Below, in pieces: positions 3,746-32,541 of a stretch of DNA of 34,621 bases. The stretch's first letter is position 1. Each line of letters begins with the position of its first letter. Source of the DNA: Bacillota bacterium (lineage in GTDB: Bacteria; Bacillota; Dethiobacteria; DTU022). Where the stretch lies: contig VGTO01000011.1 in the NCBI GenBank assembly GCA_016874655.1, forward strand, positions 1 to 34,621. The letters are read 5' to 3'. The position numbers and the translations under genes were made by a program. The notes under the pieces were generated by a model. It searched no databases, was not told where the DNA came from, and saw only the letters and a program-made list of their open reading frames with translations.

Positions 3746-4174
3746 ATGGCTAAAACAGAAGGCCGGACCCTGCCGCTAGAACTGGGCACGGTAAAAATTG
3801 CCGATGAAGTAGTTTCGATTATTGCCGGTTTAGCCGCTACCGAAGTGAAAGGTGTAGCATCAATGAGTGGTGGTATTACTGGTGGTATTTCCGAAGTGCT
3901 TGGACGCAAGAATTTTTCCAAAGGGGTTAAAGTTGAAGTAGGTACCGAAGAAGCGAAGGTCGATATTTTTATCAGCGTGAAATACGGAGAGCGGATTCCC
4001 GACGTTGCCTGGGCTATTCAGGAGAGCGTAAAAAAAGCAATTGAGTCAATGACCGGCTTAAAAGTAAGCAGTGTCAACGTCCATGTTCAGGGAGTTCAGT
4101 TCCCGCAGCAAGAAAATAGTGAGGCAGAAAAAGCTGAAAGCGACGATCAGGTTGCCGCTGAAAATGAACAATAA
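3746..4174 (+). CDS. Asp23/Gls24 family envelope stress response protein
   Basis: LGTVKIADEVVSIIAGLAATEVKGVASMSGG...VKVEVGTEEAKVDIFISVKYGERIPDVAWAIQESVKKAIESMTGLKVSSVNVHVQGV. Confidence 0.95.
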   Translation: MAKTEGRTLPLELGTVKIADEVVSIIAGLAATEVKGVASMSGGITGGISEVLGRKNFSKGVKVEVGTEEAKVDIFISVKYGERIPDVAWAIQESVKKAIESMTGLKVSSVNVHVQGVQFPQQENSEAEKAESDDQVAAENEQ

Positions 4175-13087: not shown

Positions 13088-13717
13088 ATGAAAATGGCAG
13101 AAAAAAGCAGTGCGCACTTTATAGAGGTTCTGGCCTCGAAAGCCCCGGTTCCCGGAGGAGGCGGTGCAGCGGCAATGGGTGGGGCGATCGGCATGGCCCT
13201 CTCCAACATGGTTGGCAACCTGACGGTTGGAAAAAAGAAATATGCCGATGTTGAAGATGAGGTTAAGCAATTATTGGCAGAAGGCAGTGCTATTATCGAG
13301 GCCTTAAAAGACCTGGTCGATCGGGATGCTCAAGTCTTTGAACCGCTGTCCAAGGCTTACGGGTTACCGAAGGATACCCCGGAGCAGGCGGCGCACAAGG
13401 AAAAAGTGATGGAAGAATGCTCAATAGAAGCCTGCTCAGTCCCGCTCGAAATAATGCGCAAAGCGTACGCGGGGATTAAAATACACGAGCGAATGGGGCA
13501 GATTGGTTCCCGCCTGGCTATATCCGATGTCGGCTGCGGGGTAGTTTTCTTAAAAGCGGCCTTGATTAGCGGGCAGTTGAATGTGATGATTAACTTGGGC
13601 GCGATTAAGAATGAAAAATTCTTAAAGGAAACGACAGCCGAGATGAAGCAACTGGTTGAAGAAGGCAGTCGTCTGGCCGACCAAACTTTATCTGATGTGA
13701 TGAAGAAGCTTTCGTAA
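13088..13717 (+). CDS. fchA: Cyclodeaminase/cyclohydrolase family protein (methenyl-THF cyclohydrolase FchA-like)
   Basis: VLASKAPVPGGGGAAAMGGAIGMALSNMVGNLTVGKKKY...; GSRLAISDVGCGVVFLKAALISGQLNVMINLGAIKNEKF. Confidence 0.9.
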   Translation: MKMAEKSSAHFIEVLASKAPVPGGGGAAAMGGAIGMALSNMVGNLTVGKKKYADVEDEVKQLLAEGSAIIEALKDLVDRDAQVFEPLSKAYGLPKDTPEQAAHKEKVMEECSIEACSVPLEIMRKAYAGIKIHERMGQIGSRLAISDVGCGVVFLKAALISGQLNVMINLGAIKNEKFLKETTAEMKQLVEEGSRLADQTLSDVMKKLS

Positions 13718-13759
13718 AGGTATTTTTAAGTGCAAGCAGCAATCAGGGGATGCTGTAAA

Positions 13760-13788
13760 TTGACGCAAAAAGACCAATTTGCTATAAT
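13760..13788 (+). promoter_or_regulatory. Putative sigma-A promoter upstream of folD
   Basis: TTGACG (13760-13765), 17-nt spacer, TATAAT (13783-13788). Confidence 0.7.
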
Positions 13789-13847
13789 TACCGCGGATTA
13801 ACTGTTATTGCTGAATTATTAATACAAAGCTGAAAGGGGCAAGTAAA

Positions 13848-14783
13848 GTGACAAAAGTGATCGATTGTGTAGCTATTGGCGAAGAGCTGATGAAAGAGAT
13901 TGTTAAAGAAACGGAGGCTTTAAAAGCCAAAGGGATCACCCCTGGGATCGCTACCCTGCTGGTTGGCGACGATTTCGGGGCGAACATGTACAGGGGACAA
14001 GTAGAAAAATTCTGCGAGGAAGCCGGTTTCAATTATATCAATGAAAACCCTGCCGCCGATGTCAGTGAAGCAGAAGTGATCGAGATTGTCAAAAAGCTCA
14101 ACGCCAATCCGACCGTCAGTGGCATTCTGCCGCTGCGTCCTTTTCCGGAGCAGATTTCCGACAGCGCAGTAATCAATTCGATTGATGTGAATAAAGATAT
14201 CGACTGCTTCCATCCCTTTAACATGGGTAAACTGGCCATGGGCGAAGTTACCTTCCCTCCGGCCACACCGGCGGCAGTGATCGAAATTCTTGAGCGTTAC
14301 GCTACTGAAGAAGGGATAGACCCGAAAGATTTCTTTGAAGGGGCAGAGATAGTTGTGGTCGGCCATTCCAACATTGTCGGCAAGCCGGCAGCTTATCTTG
14401 CGGTCAACCGCAATGCCACAACCTCAATTACCCACGTATTTACCAGTATGAAAGGCAACCTGGCCAAGCATACAACCGGCGCCGATATTTTGATTGTGGC
14501 CGCCGGCAAAGCAGACCTGATTGGACCGGACCTGGTTAAAGCAGGTGCTATTGTGATTGATGTGGGGATCAACCGGGTTAAAGTTCTTGATGAAAAAGGT
14601 GAACCGGTCCTTAATGATAAGGGCAAACCGAAAACAAAAACAGTTGGCGATGTCTCCTTTGATGCAGTGAAAGATAAAACCAAGGCGATCACCCCGGTTC
14701 CGGGCGGCGTTGGTTCGGTTACTAACCGGATGCTGATGAAGAACGCGCTAAAAGCCTGCAAAATAGCAAACGGCTTGCTCTAA
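13848..14783 (+). CDS. folD: Bifunctional methylene-THF dehydrogenase / methenyl-THF cyclohydrolase family (FolD)
   Basis: PGIATLLVGDDFGANMYRGQVEKFCEEAGF; PVSGILPLRPFPEQ; DIDCFHPFNMGKLAMG; VVVGHSNIVGKPAAYLAVNRNATTSITHVFT; TPVPGGVGSVTNRML. Confidence 0.94.
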   Translation: MTKVIDCVAIGEELMKEIVKETEALKAKGITPGIATLLVGDDFGANMYRGQVEKFCEEAGFNYINENPAADVSEAEVIEIVKKLNANPTVSGILPLRPFPEQISDSAVINSIDVNKDIDCFHPFNMGKLAMGEVTFPPATPAAVIEILERYATEEGIDPKDFFEGAEIVVVGHSNIVGKPAAYLAVNRNATTSITHVFTSMKGNLAKHTTGADILIVAAGKADLIGPDLVKAGAIVIDVGINRVKVLDEKGEPVLNDKGKPKTKTVGDVSFDAVKDKTKAITPVPGGVGSVTNRMLMKNALKACKIANGLL

Positions 14784-14810: not shown

Positions 14811-14839
14811 TTGAGATTGAAAGCGGATTATGTTATAAT
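14811..14839 (+). promoter_or_regulatory. Putative sigma-A promoter driving the OLE RNA
   Basis: TTGAGA (14811-14816), 17-nt spacer, perfect TATAAT (14834-14839). Predicted start near 14846, about 9 nt upstream of the terminal helix. Confidence 0.8.
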
Positions 14840-14845
14840 CTTGTT

Positions 14846-15425
14846 TGAACCTGGACATAAGTGGTGCAGTATTCTAGTTGGTGTCCCTCTCCGAAAACGG
14901 GCCTAAAAATCCGTTAAGGGCACATCGATGAAGTTCCTGGTGGTGGCTGCCGACGCCCAGTCGGGAGCTGTTGCTGGGAGTTAAGAAGGACGGGGCGATC
15001 TACAATGGCATGTGGGCGTTGACCCTGCCTTCGCGGAGACCCTGTGTCGGTGGCTAAAGCTGAAAAGTAATAGTTACTGCCTGGGTAAGAACCTGTATGC
15101 GGTTAATAGCTGTGTGCAGCGTAGCCTGCCTTGAGTGGAATGGGTGGAGGGAGGAGCAGGTGCTCTTTAAACCCTTTCTGCAAAAGTGGCTAGGGGAGAA
15201 CAGGCACCAGGGAGGAAATCTTCTAGACTGCTCTCGCAAGAGAAGTAATTCAGGGATTAAAGTGTGAGCTAAGTGGTAATCCAGCTCTGATGATGGTGAC
15301 ACTACAGGGATAGTCTTAAAAGGGAACTGCCTGCTTGGCAACGACAGGTGATTATCCGGGAAATCCTGCTGGACCTAAGCCGCAAAGTTTACCTGAGTTA
15401 CTACCACTTATGTTTTAATGTACAG
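14846..15425 (+). ncRNA. ole: OLE RNA (Ornate, Large, Extremophilic RNA)
   Basis: ~580-nt gap with no plausible + strand CDS in an otherwise tightly packed + strand cluster. Own promoter; perfect 11-bp pairing between 5' ACATAAGTGGT (14855-14865) and 3' ACCACTTATGT (15403-15413). Immediately followed by an OapA-like membrane protein gene and dxs, in the nusB-xseAB-ispA-folD-dxs-tlyA-recN neighbourhood characteristic of OLE loci. Boundaries approximate. Confidence 0.87.
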
Positions 15426-15441
15426 AACAAGGTGATGTGGC

Positions 15442-16029
15442 TTGTCTTTCAATTATAAAAAACGCCGTAAAACGCGGTGGGTGCTTGCTACAATAATCTG
15501 GACTTTTTTTCTTGCCGTTATTTTTGGTTTTATCACTCAATATTTACTAAATGAAGTTAAATCTTTGCCAGTTTCATTTTTAATTTTGCTACTTGTTGTA
15601 CTGATCGGCATTATCTTTGATCTGGTTGGCACCGCCGCTGCTGCCGCCAAAATTGCTCCGCTTAATGCCAAGGCAGCCCGCCGGGTTACGGGGGCCAGAA
15701 AAGCAGTCTTACTGGTAAAAAATGCTGAGCAGGTGGCCAATTTCTGCAACGATGTAGTCGGAGATATCAGTGGCATTATCAGCGGAACTATTGCTGCCAT
15801 GATTGTGTTTAGGCTAATTTCTTTTTTCCCAACTCAACTGGCCGAGTTCTATCTCGGCATTTTACTGACCGCTGTAGTAGCCGCGATAACCGTCGGGGGA
15901 AAAGCCCGAGGCAAATCAATTGCCATTAAATATTCCACTGAAGTGATTCTGCTGGCCGGTCTGATCATTACTAAATTAGAGAATCCTTTTGGCCGGCAGA
16001 AAAAGCAGAACACAACCAACGAGGGTTGA
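15442..16029 (+). CDS. oapA: OLE-associated membrane protein A (OapA)
   Basis: 195-aa multi-helix membrane protein with TTG start directly after the OLE RNA. Conserved-looking core LVVLIGIIFDLVGTAAAAAKIAPLNAKAARRVTGARKAVLLVKNAEQVANFCNDVVGDISGIISG between the helices. Call rests on position plus family recognition. Confidence 0.85.
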   Translation: MSFNYKKRRKTRWVLATIIWTFFLAVIFGFITQYLLNEVKSLPVSFLILLLVVLIGIIFDLVGTAAAAAKIAPLNAKAARRVTGARKAVLLVKNAEQVANFCNDVVGDISGIISGTIAAMIVFRLISFFPTQLAEFYLGILLTAVVAAITVGGKARGKSIAIKYSTEVILLAGLIITKLENPFGRQKKQNTTNEG

Positions 16030-16034
16030 TCGCC

Positions 16035-17927
16035 ATGAGTATAAATATAGAAAACTTAAATTTACCCGCCGATCTAAAAAAACTTACCCGGCAACAATTG
16101 GAAGAGGTATCAGCTGCCATCCGGGAATATATGATTAAAACCGTTGCCGATATCGGTGGCCATCTGGCAGCCAGCCTTGGGGTGGTGGAACTTGCCGTAG
16201 CCTTGCACAGTTATTACGAAAGCCCACGTGACAAAATTATCTGGGATGTTGGTCACCAGAGTTATCCCCACAAACTGCTTACCGGCCGCTGGGAAAGCTT
16301 TCCGACCCTGCGTCGACAGGGTGGTTTATGCGGTTTTCCAAAACCGGCCGAAAGTGAACATGATCCCTTTCTGACCGGGCACAGCAGTACGTCCATCTCC
16401 GCTGCAGTGGGGCTGGCCCTGGCCCGTGATCACTTAGCTGATGATTACCGGGTTGTGGCCGTTATCGGTGACGGGGCGCTTACCGGTGGCATGGCCTTTG
16501 AGGCGCTAAACCATGCCGGTCACATCAAGGCGAAGGTAACGGTAATCTTAAACGACAACAAGATGTCGATCGGCTCGAACGTGGGCAGCATGTCTGCTTA
16601 TTTGGGACGGATTCGATCCGATCCCAAGTACTCACGTCTAAAAGAGGATTTTGAAAACTTTGTAACCCGGGTGCCCCATATCGGCAGGCGGCTGGTTGAA
16701 ACAGCGGAGCGGCTTAAAGGTGGTCTGAAATACCTGATCATGCCTGGAATGCTGTTCGAAGAGCTGGGCTTTACTTATTTTGGTCCGGTAGATGGCCACG
16801 ATCTGGCAGCGCTCAGGAACGTATTAAAACAAGCTGATAAGATGAACGGGCCTGTTTTGGTCCACGTAGTGACCGAAAAGGGCAAGGGGTACCGTTTTGC
16901 TGAAATTGAACCGGAGATGTTTCACGGTATTGGTCCATTTGATCTGCATAACGGAACCCTGCGGAAGCAGAAAAAGGCACCCACCTATACGGACTGTTTT
17001 GGAAAAACATTACTGGAAATTGCCGCTGCTGATCCAAAGGTGGTGGCGATCACCGCAGCAATGACGACAGGAACCGGGCTGAAGGAGTTCAGCGAAAAAT
17101 ACCCGGAAAGATTTTATGATGTCGGGATCGCCGAGCAGCATGCGGTAACGATGGCCTCCGCTTTGGCTATGGGTGGGATGCGCCCTGTTTTTGCTGTCTA
17201 TAGCACTTTTCTACAGCGAGCCTATGATCAAATTCTTCATGACACCTGCATCCAAAACTTACCGGTCTTGTTTGCCGTCGACCGGGCCGGTATTGTCGGT
17301 GAAGACGGCGAGACTCACCAGGGGCTATTTGACCTGACTTACCTGCGCAGCATCCCTAATATGAATATCATGGCCCCGGCCAATGAAATAGAACTGCAGA
17401 ATATGCTTTTTACTGCTTTAAACAGTGATCATGGCCCAGTTGCTATCCGCTACCCTCGCGACAAGAGTAGCGGTCTAGATCGCAAACCACTTGGACTGCT
17501 GCCATGGGGACGGGGAGAGCTGATGCGTGAAGGCGACAGCCTCTTGATTGTTGCCGCCGGCACAGTACTGGCGGCTGCTCTCGAGGCAGCGGAAAACCTT
17601 TATTGGCAAGGGATTAAAGTGGCAGTGATTAATGCCCGTTTTGTAAAACCCCTTGACGAAGAATTGATTTTACAATGGGCAAAACATTGCGGCCACGTAC
17701 TGACCGTAGAGGAAAATATTTTAAACGGCGGTTTCGGCAGTGGCGTTGTTGAACTGATGGAGAAAAACGATCTGTTCATCCCGGTTAGGCGCCTTGGTAT
17801 TGACGATCAGTTTGTAGCTCACGGCAGCCGAGCCCAGATGCTGGCCTGCCACGGTTTAGACGCTACCGGTATTTTTAACACTGCCCTTGTGCTTAGCGGG
17901 AAGCAAGCAGTAAAAGGTGTCAATTGA
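16035..17927 (+). CDS. dxs: 1-deoxy-D-xylulose-5-phosphate synthase
   Basis: GGHLAASLGVVELAVALH, DVGHQSYPHKLLTGR, AVIGDGALTGGMAFEALNHAG, FEELGFTYFGPVDGHD, YDVGIAEQHAVTMASALA, DRAGIVGEDGETHQGLFDLTYLR. Start 16026 or 16035. Confidence 0.97.
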   Translation: MSINIENLNLPADLKKLTRQQLEEVSAAIREYMIKTVADIGGHLAASLGVVELAVALHSYYESPRDKIIWDVGHQSYPHKLLTGRWESFPTLRRQGGLCGFPKPAESEHDPFLTGHSSTSISAAVGLALARDHLADDYRVVAVIGDGALTGGMAFEALNHAGHIKAKVTVILNDNKMSIGSNVGSMSAYLGRIRSDPKYSRLKEDFENFVTRVPHIGRRLVETAERLKGGLKYLIMPGMLFEELGFTYFGPVDGHDLAALRNVLKQADKMNGPVLVHVVTEKGKGYRFAEIEPEMFHGIGPFDLHNGTLRKQKKAPTYTDCFGKTLLEIAAADPKVVAITAAMTTGTGLKEFSEKYPERFYDVGIAEQHAVTMASALAMGGMRPVFAVYSTFLQRAYDQILHDTCIQNLPVLFAVDRAGIVGEDGETHQGLFDLTYLRSIPNMNIMAPANEIELQNMLFTALNSDHGPVAIRYPRDKSSGLDRKPLGLLPWGRGELMREGDSLLIVAAGTVLAAALEAAENLYWQGIKVAVINARFVKPLDEELILQWAKHCGHVLTVEENILNGGFGSGVVELMEKNDLFIPVRRLGIDDQFVAHGSRAQMLACHGLDATGIFNTALVLSGKQAVKGVN

Positions 17928-29701: not shown

Positions 29702-30307
29702 TTGCTCTATTATTTTGCGCGGTTTATTTTTTTAATCTATCTTAAAGTTTTCTACCGCATAACCATCTTCGGCAGGACCAATATCCCCGGCCGCAAGCCT
29801 TTTATAGTCTGCGCCAATCATATCAGCTGGCATGACCCTCTTTCTGTTGGAGTAGCGCTAGCGGCCCGGTACAGAATTAATTACATGGCCAAAAAAGAGC
29901 TTTTTAGTAATTTCATCTTACGCTTTTTATTAATCCGCGCCGGGGCATTTCCGGTTAACCGCCAGGAGGCGGATCTGATCGCCGTTAAGAAGGCGTATCT
30001 GATCCTAAAAGAAGGTAACGTATTAGGATTATTCCCGGAAGGAACCCGTAGTGCGAGCGGCGTTATGCAGAAAGCATATAATGGTGCCGCGCTGATCGCT
30101 GTCCGCAGTGGTGTTCCGATCCTGCCGGTGGCGATAGAAGGTCCGTATCGCCTGTTTAAGCCGGTTAAAGTCCATATTGGCAAACCATTTGTTTTGCCTC
30201 CACTTATTTATGAGCAAAAAAATAAAAAAAGAGAGCAACTGGAAGAAATGAGCGATCTGATTATGAATACTATCAGCCGGTTGCTGACGGAGCAGAAAAA
30301 TAAGTGA
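29702..30307 (+). CDS. plsC: 1-acyl-sn-glycerol-3-phosphate acyltransferase
   Basis: CANHISWHDPLSVGVAL (HxxxxD), AGAFPVNRQEADL, GLFPEGTRSASG. Confidence 0.94.
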   Translation: MLYYFARFIFLIYLKVFYRITIFGRTNIPGRKPFIVCANHISWHDPLSVGVALAARYRINYMAKKELFSNFILRFLLIRAGAFPVNRQEADLIAVKKAYLILKEGNVLGLFPEGTRSASGVMQKAYNGAALIAVRSGVPILPVAIEGPYRLFKPVKVHIGKPFVLPPLIYEQKNKKREQLEEMSDLIMNTISRLLTEQKNK

Positions 30308-32541
30308 AGGTACTTAAGGCAAAAAATGCAGGTTTTTGTTCTGGAGTAAATAAGGCTTTCAATCGCTTACTCGAGAAAGCAGCTCAGGAGGGTGAAGGTT
30401 CTGTATTAGGTGACCTGGTCCACAACGAACAGGTTGTGCAGTATCTGGCCCAGCAGGCCATAAAAAAAATTGATCAGCCGCAGGAAGCCTACGGTTCTTT
30501 TCTGGCGATCAGAACCCATGGTGCTACCCCTCAACTTCTGGCCACCCTCAAAGAAATGAAAAACATAGAATTAATTGACTTGACATGTCCCCGGGTGAAA
30601 AGGGTTCAGGAGATCGCCCGTGAGCTGGCTGAGCGCAATATTAAGGTCGTCATTTTTGGCAATTGCAATCATCCCGAAGTTGAAGGTTTGGTAGGTTGGG
30701 CCGGTGCAGATGCAGCGGTTGTGGCAACCCTCAGGGAACTCGAAGAGCTGATCGTCGAAAATCCTGCTGCCTTGATTGCCCAGACCACCTGCGATCCTGA
30801 ACTTTATGAAAAAGCCCAAAATATATTCCGGAATGCGCATCTTGACGGTATGGTTTATAATACAATTTGTCCGGAAACACGGTTACGGCAGGATGAAGTA
30901 TTAACGATGGCAGAGAGGGTTGACGCTTTTGTAGTTGTAGGCAGTGCGAGCAGTGCTAATACAATGACCCTTTATGATAGATGCCGGCAGCTGAAACCGG
31001 CTTGCCGGGTAAATAGTGCAAGGGAGTTGGATTGGTCTTTTTTAGGTCAGTTTGAGGTGATCGGCGTTACTGCCGGAGCGTCAACTCCCCCATGGATGAT
31101 CAAGGAGGTTGTGGAGAGTATGGAGAACGAGAATGTAGAAGTAAAGAACGAGGAGCAATTTCAGTTTGACCAAGAAATCAAGGTAGCCCAGGTTGGTGAG
31201 CAGGTTACCGGAAAGGTAGCAAGAGTTACCGATGAAGAAGTGTTTGTCGATATCGGCAGCAAATCAGAGGCTATTCTCCCTTTCGGCGAAGTGCACCTGG
31301 AAACAGGTAAAACCTTGTCCGATCTTTTTGCTCCTGAGGATGAAATTGAAGTCACCGTTATAGAAGATGAGGAGCAGGAAGGGAAAGTGGTCGTTTCACA
31401 TAAAAGGCTGGCCCGTGATAAAAAGATCAACGAGCTGCTTGATGCTTACGAAAACGGAACGGTTACCGCAGGTGTGGTAAAACAGGTAGTTAATGCCGGG
31501 TTGGTTCTGGATCTCGGGGCCGGGGTGGAAGGGTTCATGCCGGGATCACTGGTCGACACCAGTTATATCCAGGACTTCGCTGTTTTTAAAGATCAGCCGC
31601 TGGAATGCAAAATCATCGAATTCGACCGTGACAAAACAAAGCTGATTCTTAACCGCAAGACAATCCTGGCCGATGTAGAAGCTAAAAAGAAAGAGGAAAC
31701 CCTGAAAGCGATTAAAGTGGGATCCGTAATTAGCGGTACTGTTAAGCGGCTGACTACTTTTGGCGCTTTTGTCGATATCGGTGGAATTGACGGCCTGGTC
31801 CATGTATCGGAAATATCCTGGGAGCGTGTCAATCACCCCGGTGAAGTCCTGAAAGTTGGGGAGCAGTTGGAGGTTGAAGTCCTCGAAGTAATCCCGGAAA
31901 AAGAACGGATTAGCCTCAGTATTCGTAAAACCTTACCCGATCCGTGGCTGAAATTGGTCGGTGATCTGGAAAGTGGCCAGATAGTTACCGGCAAGGTGAC
32001 CCGATTAACCAATTTTGGTGCGTTCATCGAAATCAAGCCGGGTTTGGAGGGTTTGGCACATATATCACAGCTGGCAGAATTTCATGTCAAGCATCCTTCC
32101 GAAGTGTTGCAGGAAAAAGATGAGGTTGAGGTTAAGATTATCGAGATTAAACCTAAGAATAAAAGGATCAGCCTCAGTGTTACCGAAGCCGGAGGTGCTC
32201 TCTATAACGTCAATACTGCCGTTGCAAATGGCTCAGACAACGGAAATGTTACACTGGGCGATCTTTTCGGCGACCTTTTTGAGAACAATGCGCTTGCCTC
32301 CGACGCAGTAAAAACTGAAACTAAAGCTAAAGCTGAAGAAGTAGAAGCTAAGCCTAAGAAAGCTAAAGCTAAAGCTAAAGCTGAAGAAGTGGAAGCTAAG
32401 CCTAAGAAAGCTAAAGCTAAAGCTGAAGAAGTGGAAGCTAAGCCTAAGAAAGTTAAAGCTAAAGCTGGAGAAGTAGAAGCTAAGCCCAAGAAAGTTAAAG
32501 CTAAAGCTGAAGAAGTGGAAGCTGAAGGCGGCCAGGAATAA
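30304..32541 (+). CDS. ispH: Fusion: 4-hydroxy-3-methylbut-2-enyl diphosphate reductase (IspH) + ribosomal protein S1-like (four S1 repeats), with a Lys/Ala/Glu repeat tail
   Basis: IspH half: AKNAGFCSGVNKAFNRL, VLGDLVHNEQVV, IRTHGATPQLL, DLTCPRVKRVQEIA, QTTC, VVGSASSANTMTL, GVTAGASTPPWMI. S1 half: GTVKRLTTFGAFVDIGGIDGLVHVSEISWERV and three further S1 copies. Confidence 0.95.
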   Translation: MKVLKAKNAGFCSGVNKAFNRLLEKAAQEGEGSVLGDLVHNEQVVQYLAQQAIKKIDQPQEAYGSFLAIRTHGATPQLLATLKEMKNIELIDLTCPRVKRVQEIARELAERNIKVVIFGNCNHPEVEGLVGWAGADAAVVATLRELEELIVENPAALIAQTTCDPELYEKAQNIFRNAHLDGMVYNTICPETRLRQDEVLTMAERVDAFVVVGSASSANTMTLYDRCRQLKPACRVNSARELDWSFLGQFEVIGVTAGASTPPWMIKEVVESMENENVEVKNEEQFQFDQEIKVAQVGEQVTGKVARVTDEEVFVDIGSKSEAILPFGEVHLETGKTLSDLFAPEDEIEVTVIEDEEQEGKVVVSHKRLARDKKINELLDAYENGTVTAGVVKQVVNAGLVLDLGAGVEGFMPGSLVDTSYIQDFAVFKDQPLECKIIEFDRDKTKLILNRKTILADVEAKKKEETLKAIKVGSVISGTVKRLTTFGAFVDIGGIDGLVHVSEISWERVNHPGEVLKVGEQLEVEVLEVIPEKERISLSIRKTLPDPWLKLVGDLESGQIVTGKVTRLTNFGAFIEIKPGLEGLAHISQLAEFHVKHPSEVLQEKDEVEVKIIEIKPKNKRISLSVTEAGGALYNVNTAVANGSDNGNVTLGDLFGDLFENNALASDAVKTETKAKAEEVEAKPKKAKAKAKAEEVEAKPKKAKAKAEEVEAKPKKVKAKAGEVEAKPKKVKAKAEEVEAEGGQE
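32322..32526 (+). repeat. ~42-nt in-frame tandem repeat encoding (A/V)KAKAEEVEAKPKK-type units, about 5 copies
   Basis: Repeated gctaaagctaaagctgaagaagtrgaagctaagcctaagaaa; protein KAKAEEVEAKPKK/AKAKAKAEEVEAKPKK/AKAKAEEVEAKPKK/VKAKAGEVEAKPKK/VKAKAEEVEAEGGQE. Confidence 0.9.

Follow-up and report, generated by a model that had tools for sequence, protein, structure and literature searches.

A full-length OLE RNA with a shortened P9 arm in the Dethiobacteria

Background

OLE RNAs are among the largest structured RNAs of bacteria, and their biochemical role is not known. About 2,800 of them are known. The dimer formed by OLE has been suggested to cross the membrane, and dimerisation has been demonstrated only for RNAs with a long P9 arm.

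In the OLE dimers solved by cryo-EM, the tip of the long P9 arm carries a self-complementary loop, and the two copies of this loop form a kissing contact termed bridge B3 (PMC12286853, PMC12265935). A stress-adaptation OLE ribonucleoprotein (RNP) is established in Halalkalibacterium halodurans, in which the RNA works in trans and is abundant, processed and bound by OapA at the membrane (PMC12265935). Reduced forms have also been described: variants 1 and 2 have lost the stems P7 and P8 and often lack the OapB site, OapB and OapC as well, and in variant 1 the P7, P8 and P9 stems are shorter together (Fernando and Breaker 2024, PMC11332333). In that study RNAs were binned by bit score, with full length set at 390 bits or more under the authors' own model.

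Here we examine a stretch of 34,621 nt from a bacterium of the class Dethiobacteria (hereafter the window), in which a segment between folD and a membrane-protein gene had been predicted to be an OLE RNA locus. The features of the locus are collected in Table 1.

Table 1. Features of the ole-oapA locus, in window coordinates
Feature	Position	Strand	Basis
ole promoter: TTGAGA, 17 nt, TATAAT, extended -10 TG	14811..14839	+	11 of 12 consensus positions; conserved in relatives
OLE RNA, full length, 579 nt	14845..15423	+	RF01071, 464.3 bits, model 1-616; covariation
P4 hairpin, A-rich loop CCUAAAAA, dimer bridge B1 in cryo-EM structures	14896..14915	+	covariation, loop conservation; bridge assignment from PMC12286853
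P5 hairpin; loop GCCCA (14955-14959), one half of dimer bridge B2	14934..14980	+	PMC12286853, PMC12265935
P6 hairpin; loop AAUGGC (15005-15010), second half of dimer bridge B2	14985..15032	+	PMC12286853, PMC12265935
Full-length P7 hairpin (shortened or missing in published variants)	15040..15085	+	cmscan, length comparison, covariation
Full-length P8 hairpin (shortened or missing in published variants)	15093..15119	+	cmscan, length comparison, covariation
P9 arm, shortened; base and conserved internal loop retained, distal kissing-loop arm gone	15128..15190	+	cmscan, arm lengths
Short P9 cap hairpin GAGGAGC-AGGU-GCUCUUU replacing the palindromic kissing loop	15151..15168	+	arm comparison
3' domain (domain 2), P13 and GGCAAC loop, predicted OapB-binding region	15241..15419	+	cmscan, covariation, loop conservation
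oapA, 195-aa membrane protein, predicted OLE anchor, TTG start	15442..16029	+	position, homology, fold
dxs, downstream cluster gene	16026..17927	+	gene annotation of window

An OLE RNA in its known gene neighbourhood

The original prediction took the segment to be a genuine OLE RNA and proposed a search with the Rfam OLE model. That search (cmscan) gave a match to RF01071 which covers the model from end to end, with 464.3 bits (E = 2.2e-133) where the gathering score is 50 bits; the predicted ends, 14846 and 15425, lie no more than 2 nt from those of the model. This is the sole Rfam match across the window and the single OLE copy of the 2.13-Mb assembly. The strand folds with a z-score of -4.6, and none of 100 shuffles was equally stable. 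Among 26 relatives, 92.3% of cells are paired under the OLE structure, a share that drops to 39-48% on sliding the partners, and 53 pairs have changed on both sides, compared with 26 in shuffles and 15-25 with slid partners (none of 500 shuffles scored as high). A conserved long-range helix (helix 12) connects distant parts of the RNA, and the 3' domain is closed. The full-length match and the covariation together confirm that the window RNA is one more member of the known OLE class. The identification was thus correct; what it overlooked is that P9 is shortened and that the distal arm, the site of one dimer contact in the solved structures, is missing.

The surroundings also agree with what had been predicted. 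The stretch between folD (13848-14783) and oapA holds no credible reading frame: the plus strand of this gap contains no ORF as long as 60 aa, and its sole minus-strand ORF, of 95 aa, begins with TTG. The gene order of the cluster is xseA, xseB, ispA, fchA, folD, OLE, oapA, dxs, tlyA, nadK, recN, so that the neighbours named in advance (xseAB, ispA, dxs, tlyA and recN) were all recovered, and the cluster is the known OLE neighbourhood. Farther upstream sit nusB and, near it, an Asp23-family (YqhY) gene at 3746-4174; published ole neighbourhoods include yqhY. Some further features of the neighbouring genes may be recorded here. The fchA gene, encoding methenyl-THF cyclohydrolase, lies immediately 5' of folD (13088-14783 for the two together), and FolD itself has 311 aa as against about 285 aa in most of the models listed, the added residues being in the NAD(P)-binding domain. 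A single ORF at 30304-32541 combines LytB/IspH with four S1 RNA-binding domains and is another isoprenoid gene near ole.

Promoter and transcription

That the RNA has its own promoter, as had been claimed, is supported by the near-consensus element listed in Table 1. It ends 5 nt before the RNA, the predicted transcription start (about 14846) falls about where the RNA model begins, and 39 of 41 relatives have, at the equivalent position, an element with at least nine of 12 consensus matches. The interval between the OLE RNA and oapA showed no terminator, and the RNA would therefore be co-transcribed with oapA and dxs. The same arrangement could be read as a long structured cis-regulatory leader of an oapA-dxs mRNA, with no independent non-coding RNA, as the one promoter would serve the RNA and the two genes alike. 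We consider this reading extremely improbable: the H. halodurans RNA, as described above, is a trans-acting, processed membrane RNA (PMC12265935), and conservation runs through the closed 3' domain with its long-range helix, as would be expected for a free-standing RNA.

In a metatranscriptome of Cock Soda Lake sediment, OLE RNA accounts for approximately 1% of ncRNA reads (PMC6704655). Judging from their CSSed names, the metagenome-assembled genomes (MAGs) from this sediment appear to include close relatives of the window genome, and the reads lend indirect support to expression, at a remove from the window organism.

Partner proteins

The genome encodes counterparts of all the known OLE partners, namely OapA, OapB, bS21 and, as candidate OapC, one YbxF/OapC-type protein. 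The membrane-protein gene downstream of the RNA is oapA, as predicted, on the basis of position, homology and fold. We recovered the OapA family from 41 loci, and OLE lies upstream in nearly all of those that extend far enough. A Pfam CNNM match was obtained for 20 of 32 OapA relatives (best 1.6e-7); for the window OapA alone, no Pfam match was significant at 1e-3. Searches of PDB sequences with OapA, as a single sequence or as a profile, likewise yielded no match; the one entry returned for the profile, an amyloid-beta precursor chain at E = 0.25, was dismissed as not meaningful. The AlphaFold model built from the alignment has a pLDDT of 80, and its best five PDB matches are all transmembrane domains of CNNM/CorC proteins (TM 0.46-0.54), with weak Foldseek E-values (best 0.05). 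The genome also encodes one separate full CNNM (MpfA-type) protein and no second; this fits the report that MpfA is scarce among OLE carriers (PMC11332333).

OapB was not detected with the KOW Pfam model and was located instead by its place between map and infA; the homologue found there matches PDB entry 7k9b, 'OLE-associated protein B', at E = 1.5e-5. A single L7Ae-type (YbxF/OapC-type) protein is encoded after rpoC. Its family and position make it a candidate OapC, a designation to be read with the occurrence of other L7Ae paralogues in Bacillota in mind. Homologues of OapB and of the L7Ae-type protein are present in 57 and 56 of 60 relatives, respectively.

The core of the RNA is complete

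The dimer-contact loops of the window RNA were compared with those of 60 short-arm RNAs. The loop motif of bridge B1, CUAAAAAUCC, is present in the window RNA and in 57 of the 60, and the loop sequences of bridge B2 (GCCCA and AAUGGC in the window) are retained in 58 for L5 and 59 for L6. The domain-2 GGNRAC loops, two per RNA, occur in 67 of 67 short-arm RNAs. The stretch comprising P7 and P8 measures 96 nt in the window RNA, and its median is 97 nt among short-arm and 101 nt among long-arm RNAs. It is in P9 that the window RNA departs from this picture: in the cmscan alignment 9 nt, placed in a local end, stand for 44 model positions, and in the arm-length survey the arm is 44 nt long with the non-palindromic loop AGGU. 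The window RNA therefore has nothing equivalent to the long P9 arm whose self-complementary L9.3 loop makes bridge B3.

A short P9 could mean that this RNA belongs to variant 1 or 2, the reduced forms already published, as an OLE that is degenerating or has become minimal in a reduced genome; variant 1 does include a shorter P9 along with shorter P7 and P8 (PMC11332333). The results above largely refute this explanation, which we regard as very unlikely. P7 and P8 are of full length in the window RNA, the P13/OapB loop is found in every short-arm RNA, and OapB and the candidate OapC are encoded by nearly all relatives; short-arm RNAs are therefore not the published reduced variants. The score of 464 bits under the Rfam model also exceeds the 390-bit cut-off for full length, which was set with a different model, and in the bins of Fernando and Breaker the window RNA would probably be counted as full length. 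Those bins would appear to count short-arm RNAs in general as full length, so that the difference may have stayed hidden in the consensus.

P9 arms fall into two length classes

We measured the P9 arm in 198 distinct OLE RNAs and found a bimodal distribution, with arms of 16-52 nt or 68-104 nt and none of the 198 at 53-67 nt. One RNA (L166) with an apparent 16-nt arm reflects an anchor mistake: its true arm is long and has a palindrome, and although it is still counted in the length, palindrome and parsimony figures, the short class really has 67 members. Among long arms, 113 of 131 have a palindromic 4-mer in the apical loop, compared with a mean of 54 and a maximum of 69 when the loops are shuffled; most of these palindromes are GGCC, and the others include GCGC, AGCU and GAUC. 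This agrees with the published covariation. Among short arms the corresponding figure is four of 68 (with L166 included), which is the level expected by chance (mean of 5.5 in shuffles).

An alternative is that B3 has been replaced and not lost, with short-arm RNAs dimerising at P9 by a contact that is non-palindromic or specific to a lineage, for example between the cap hairpin and a different part of the partner RNA or a protein. The cap is indeed retained as a hairpin in most short-arm RNAs, with a stem of at least 4 bp in 50 of 67. However, the cap loops differ freely in length and sequence between close relatives, and where they are tetraloops, 12 of 25 in the short class are of the GNRA or UNCG type, as against one of 44 in the long class, an excess that is as expected for plain caps. 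Together these observations make a sequence-specific contact of the cap look unlikely, and we give this alternative only a small chance. The cap hairpin (helix 9) was 56% paired in the covariation test; this weak scoring is explained by the differing lengths of the arms.

History of the P9 arm

Of 60 relatives, 50 carry OLE, and across the phylum it is present in 289 of the 399 genomes sampled. The closest relatives that bear names are MAGs under the labels Firmicutes UBA993, Syntrophomonadaceae and Dethiobacter, and the names of several suggest soda-lake sediment. In a tree of OLE RNAs built without the P9 columns, the short-arm RNAs of the window's class form one clade of 56 (support 95), and the other short arms represent about ten scattered single lineages. 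Parsimony on this tree requires 12 changes of arm class, a number that falls by about one once L166 is reassigned. In true Syntrophomonas (two RNAs) the arms are long. A genome from the window's own order (G036) carries a long-arm OLE (L048, G036:C128:1879-2507) that is distant from the short-arm clade in the RNA tree, and for this reason its contig may be misbinned or horizontally transferred.

Two observations on the assemblies should be added. In three related genomes of family f5, OLE matches lie at contig ends (G045:C73:1-486, G046:C91:8306-8792 and G057:C285:17-439), where the assemblies break inside ole. Two contigs labelled Desulfovibrio sp. (DeMMO6; L016 and L035) carry OLE and OapA that group with those of Bacillota, and probably come from mislabelled or misbinned MAGs.

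Although OLE itself is already known, the loss of the P9 kissing arm across a class, with the rest of OLE complete, appears to be new. We found no description of it in the OLE literature searched; the original OLE paper, the OapB papers, the second cryo-EM paper or the 2023 review may mention it.

Proposed mechanism and implications

The locus is, very probably, a vertically inherited and functional ole-oapA unit, that is, an ordinary OLE RNP in which a short plain hairpin has taken the place of the distal P9 arm. Transcription from the ole promoter would yield the 579-nt RNA as part of a transcript with oapA and dxs, and the RNA would presumably be cut at its 3' end. Once folded, it would bind OapB at P13, the L7Ae-type OapC at the k-turn, and bS21. 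By homology with H. halodurans, OapA, with its predicted fold of CNNM magnesium transporters, would hold the RNA at the membrane, and the RNP would act in stress adaptation. In the window's class the self-complementary loop has gone with the distal arm, and because B3 is missing, dimerisation, if it occurs, would rest on the L4-L4 (B1) and L5-L6 (B2) contacts alone, as the loop sequences of short-arm RNAs suggest.

We lean towards the broader view that complete OLE RNPs without the P9 kissing-loop arm are in use throughout a bacterial class and in about ten lineages besides, with every other known contact kept in the window's class, and that the P9 arch and B3 form an optional module which has been gained or lost in evolution. 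As the kissing arm has been lost while the other contacts are kept, bridge B3 would be dispensable in nature. If this is true, OLE dimers in short-arm organisms rely solely on B1 and B2 or else are more dynamic, and the essential OLE core can be separated from a lineage-specific function of the P9 arch. A natural and otherwise complete OLE without the arch indicates which dimer contact can be dispensed with, offers a smaller RNA for structural work, and makes the need for dimerisation and for the arch in stress resistance simply testable.

Comparison with known systems

The closest described system is the ole-oapA unit of H. halodurans (RF01071), which the window RNA resembles in sequence and structure over its whole length, with oapA directly downstream. 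The two also have in common the ispA/xse/dxs/tlyA/recN cluster, and the window genome likewise encodes OapB, bS21 and a candidate OapC. They differ in that the distal P9 arm and kissing loop are replaced by a short hairpin in the window RNA, which has 579 nt as against 616 in the RF01071 model, and in that the window RNA is served by a strong promoter of its own, in contrast to the polycistronic cluster described for H. halodurans (PMC12265935). The window OapA model resembles the transmembrane domain of the MpfA/CorC (CNNM) magnesium transporters, but the protein is without their CBS and CorC domains.

Compared with the OLE dimer of Clostridium acetobutylicum (PDB 9MCW; Kretsch et al. 2025, PMC12286853), the window RNA keeps the loop sequences of B1 (L4) and B2 (L5 and L6), but bridge B3, formed by the self-complementary L9.3 loop, is impossible, because the loop is AGGU and the arm is too short. 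With OLE variant 1 (PMC11332333) the window RNA shares a shortened P9; unlike variants 1 and 2, it retains P7, P8 and the P13/OapB site, and its genome retains OapB and a candidate OapC.
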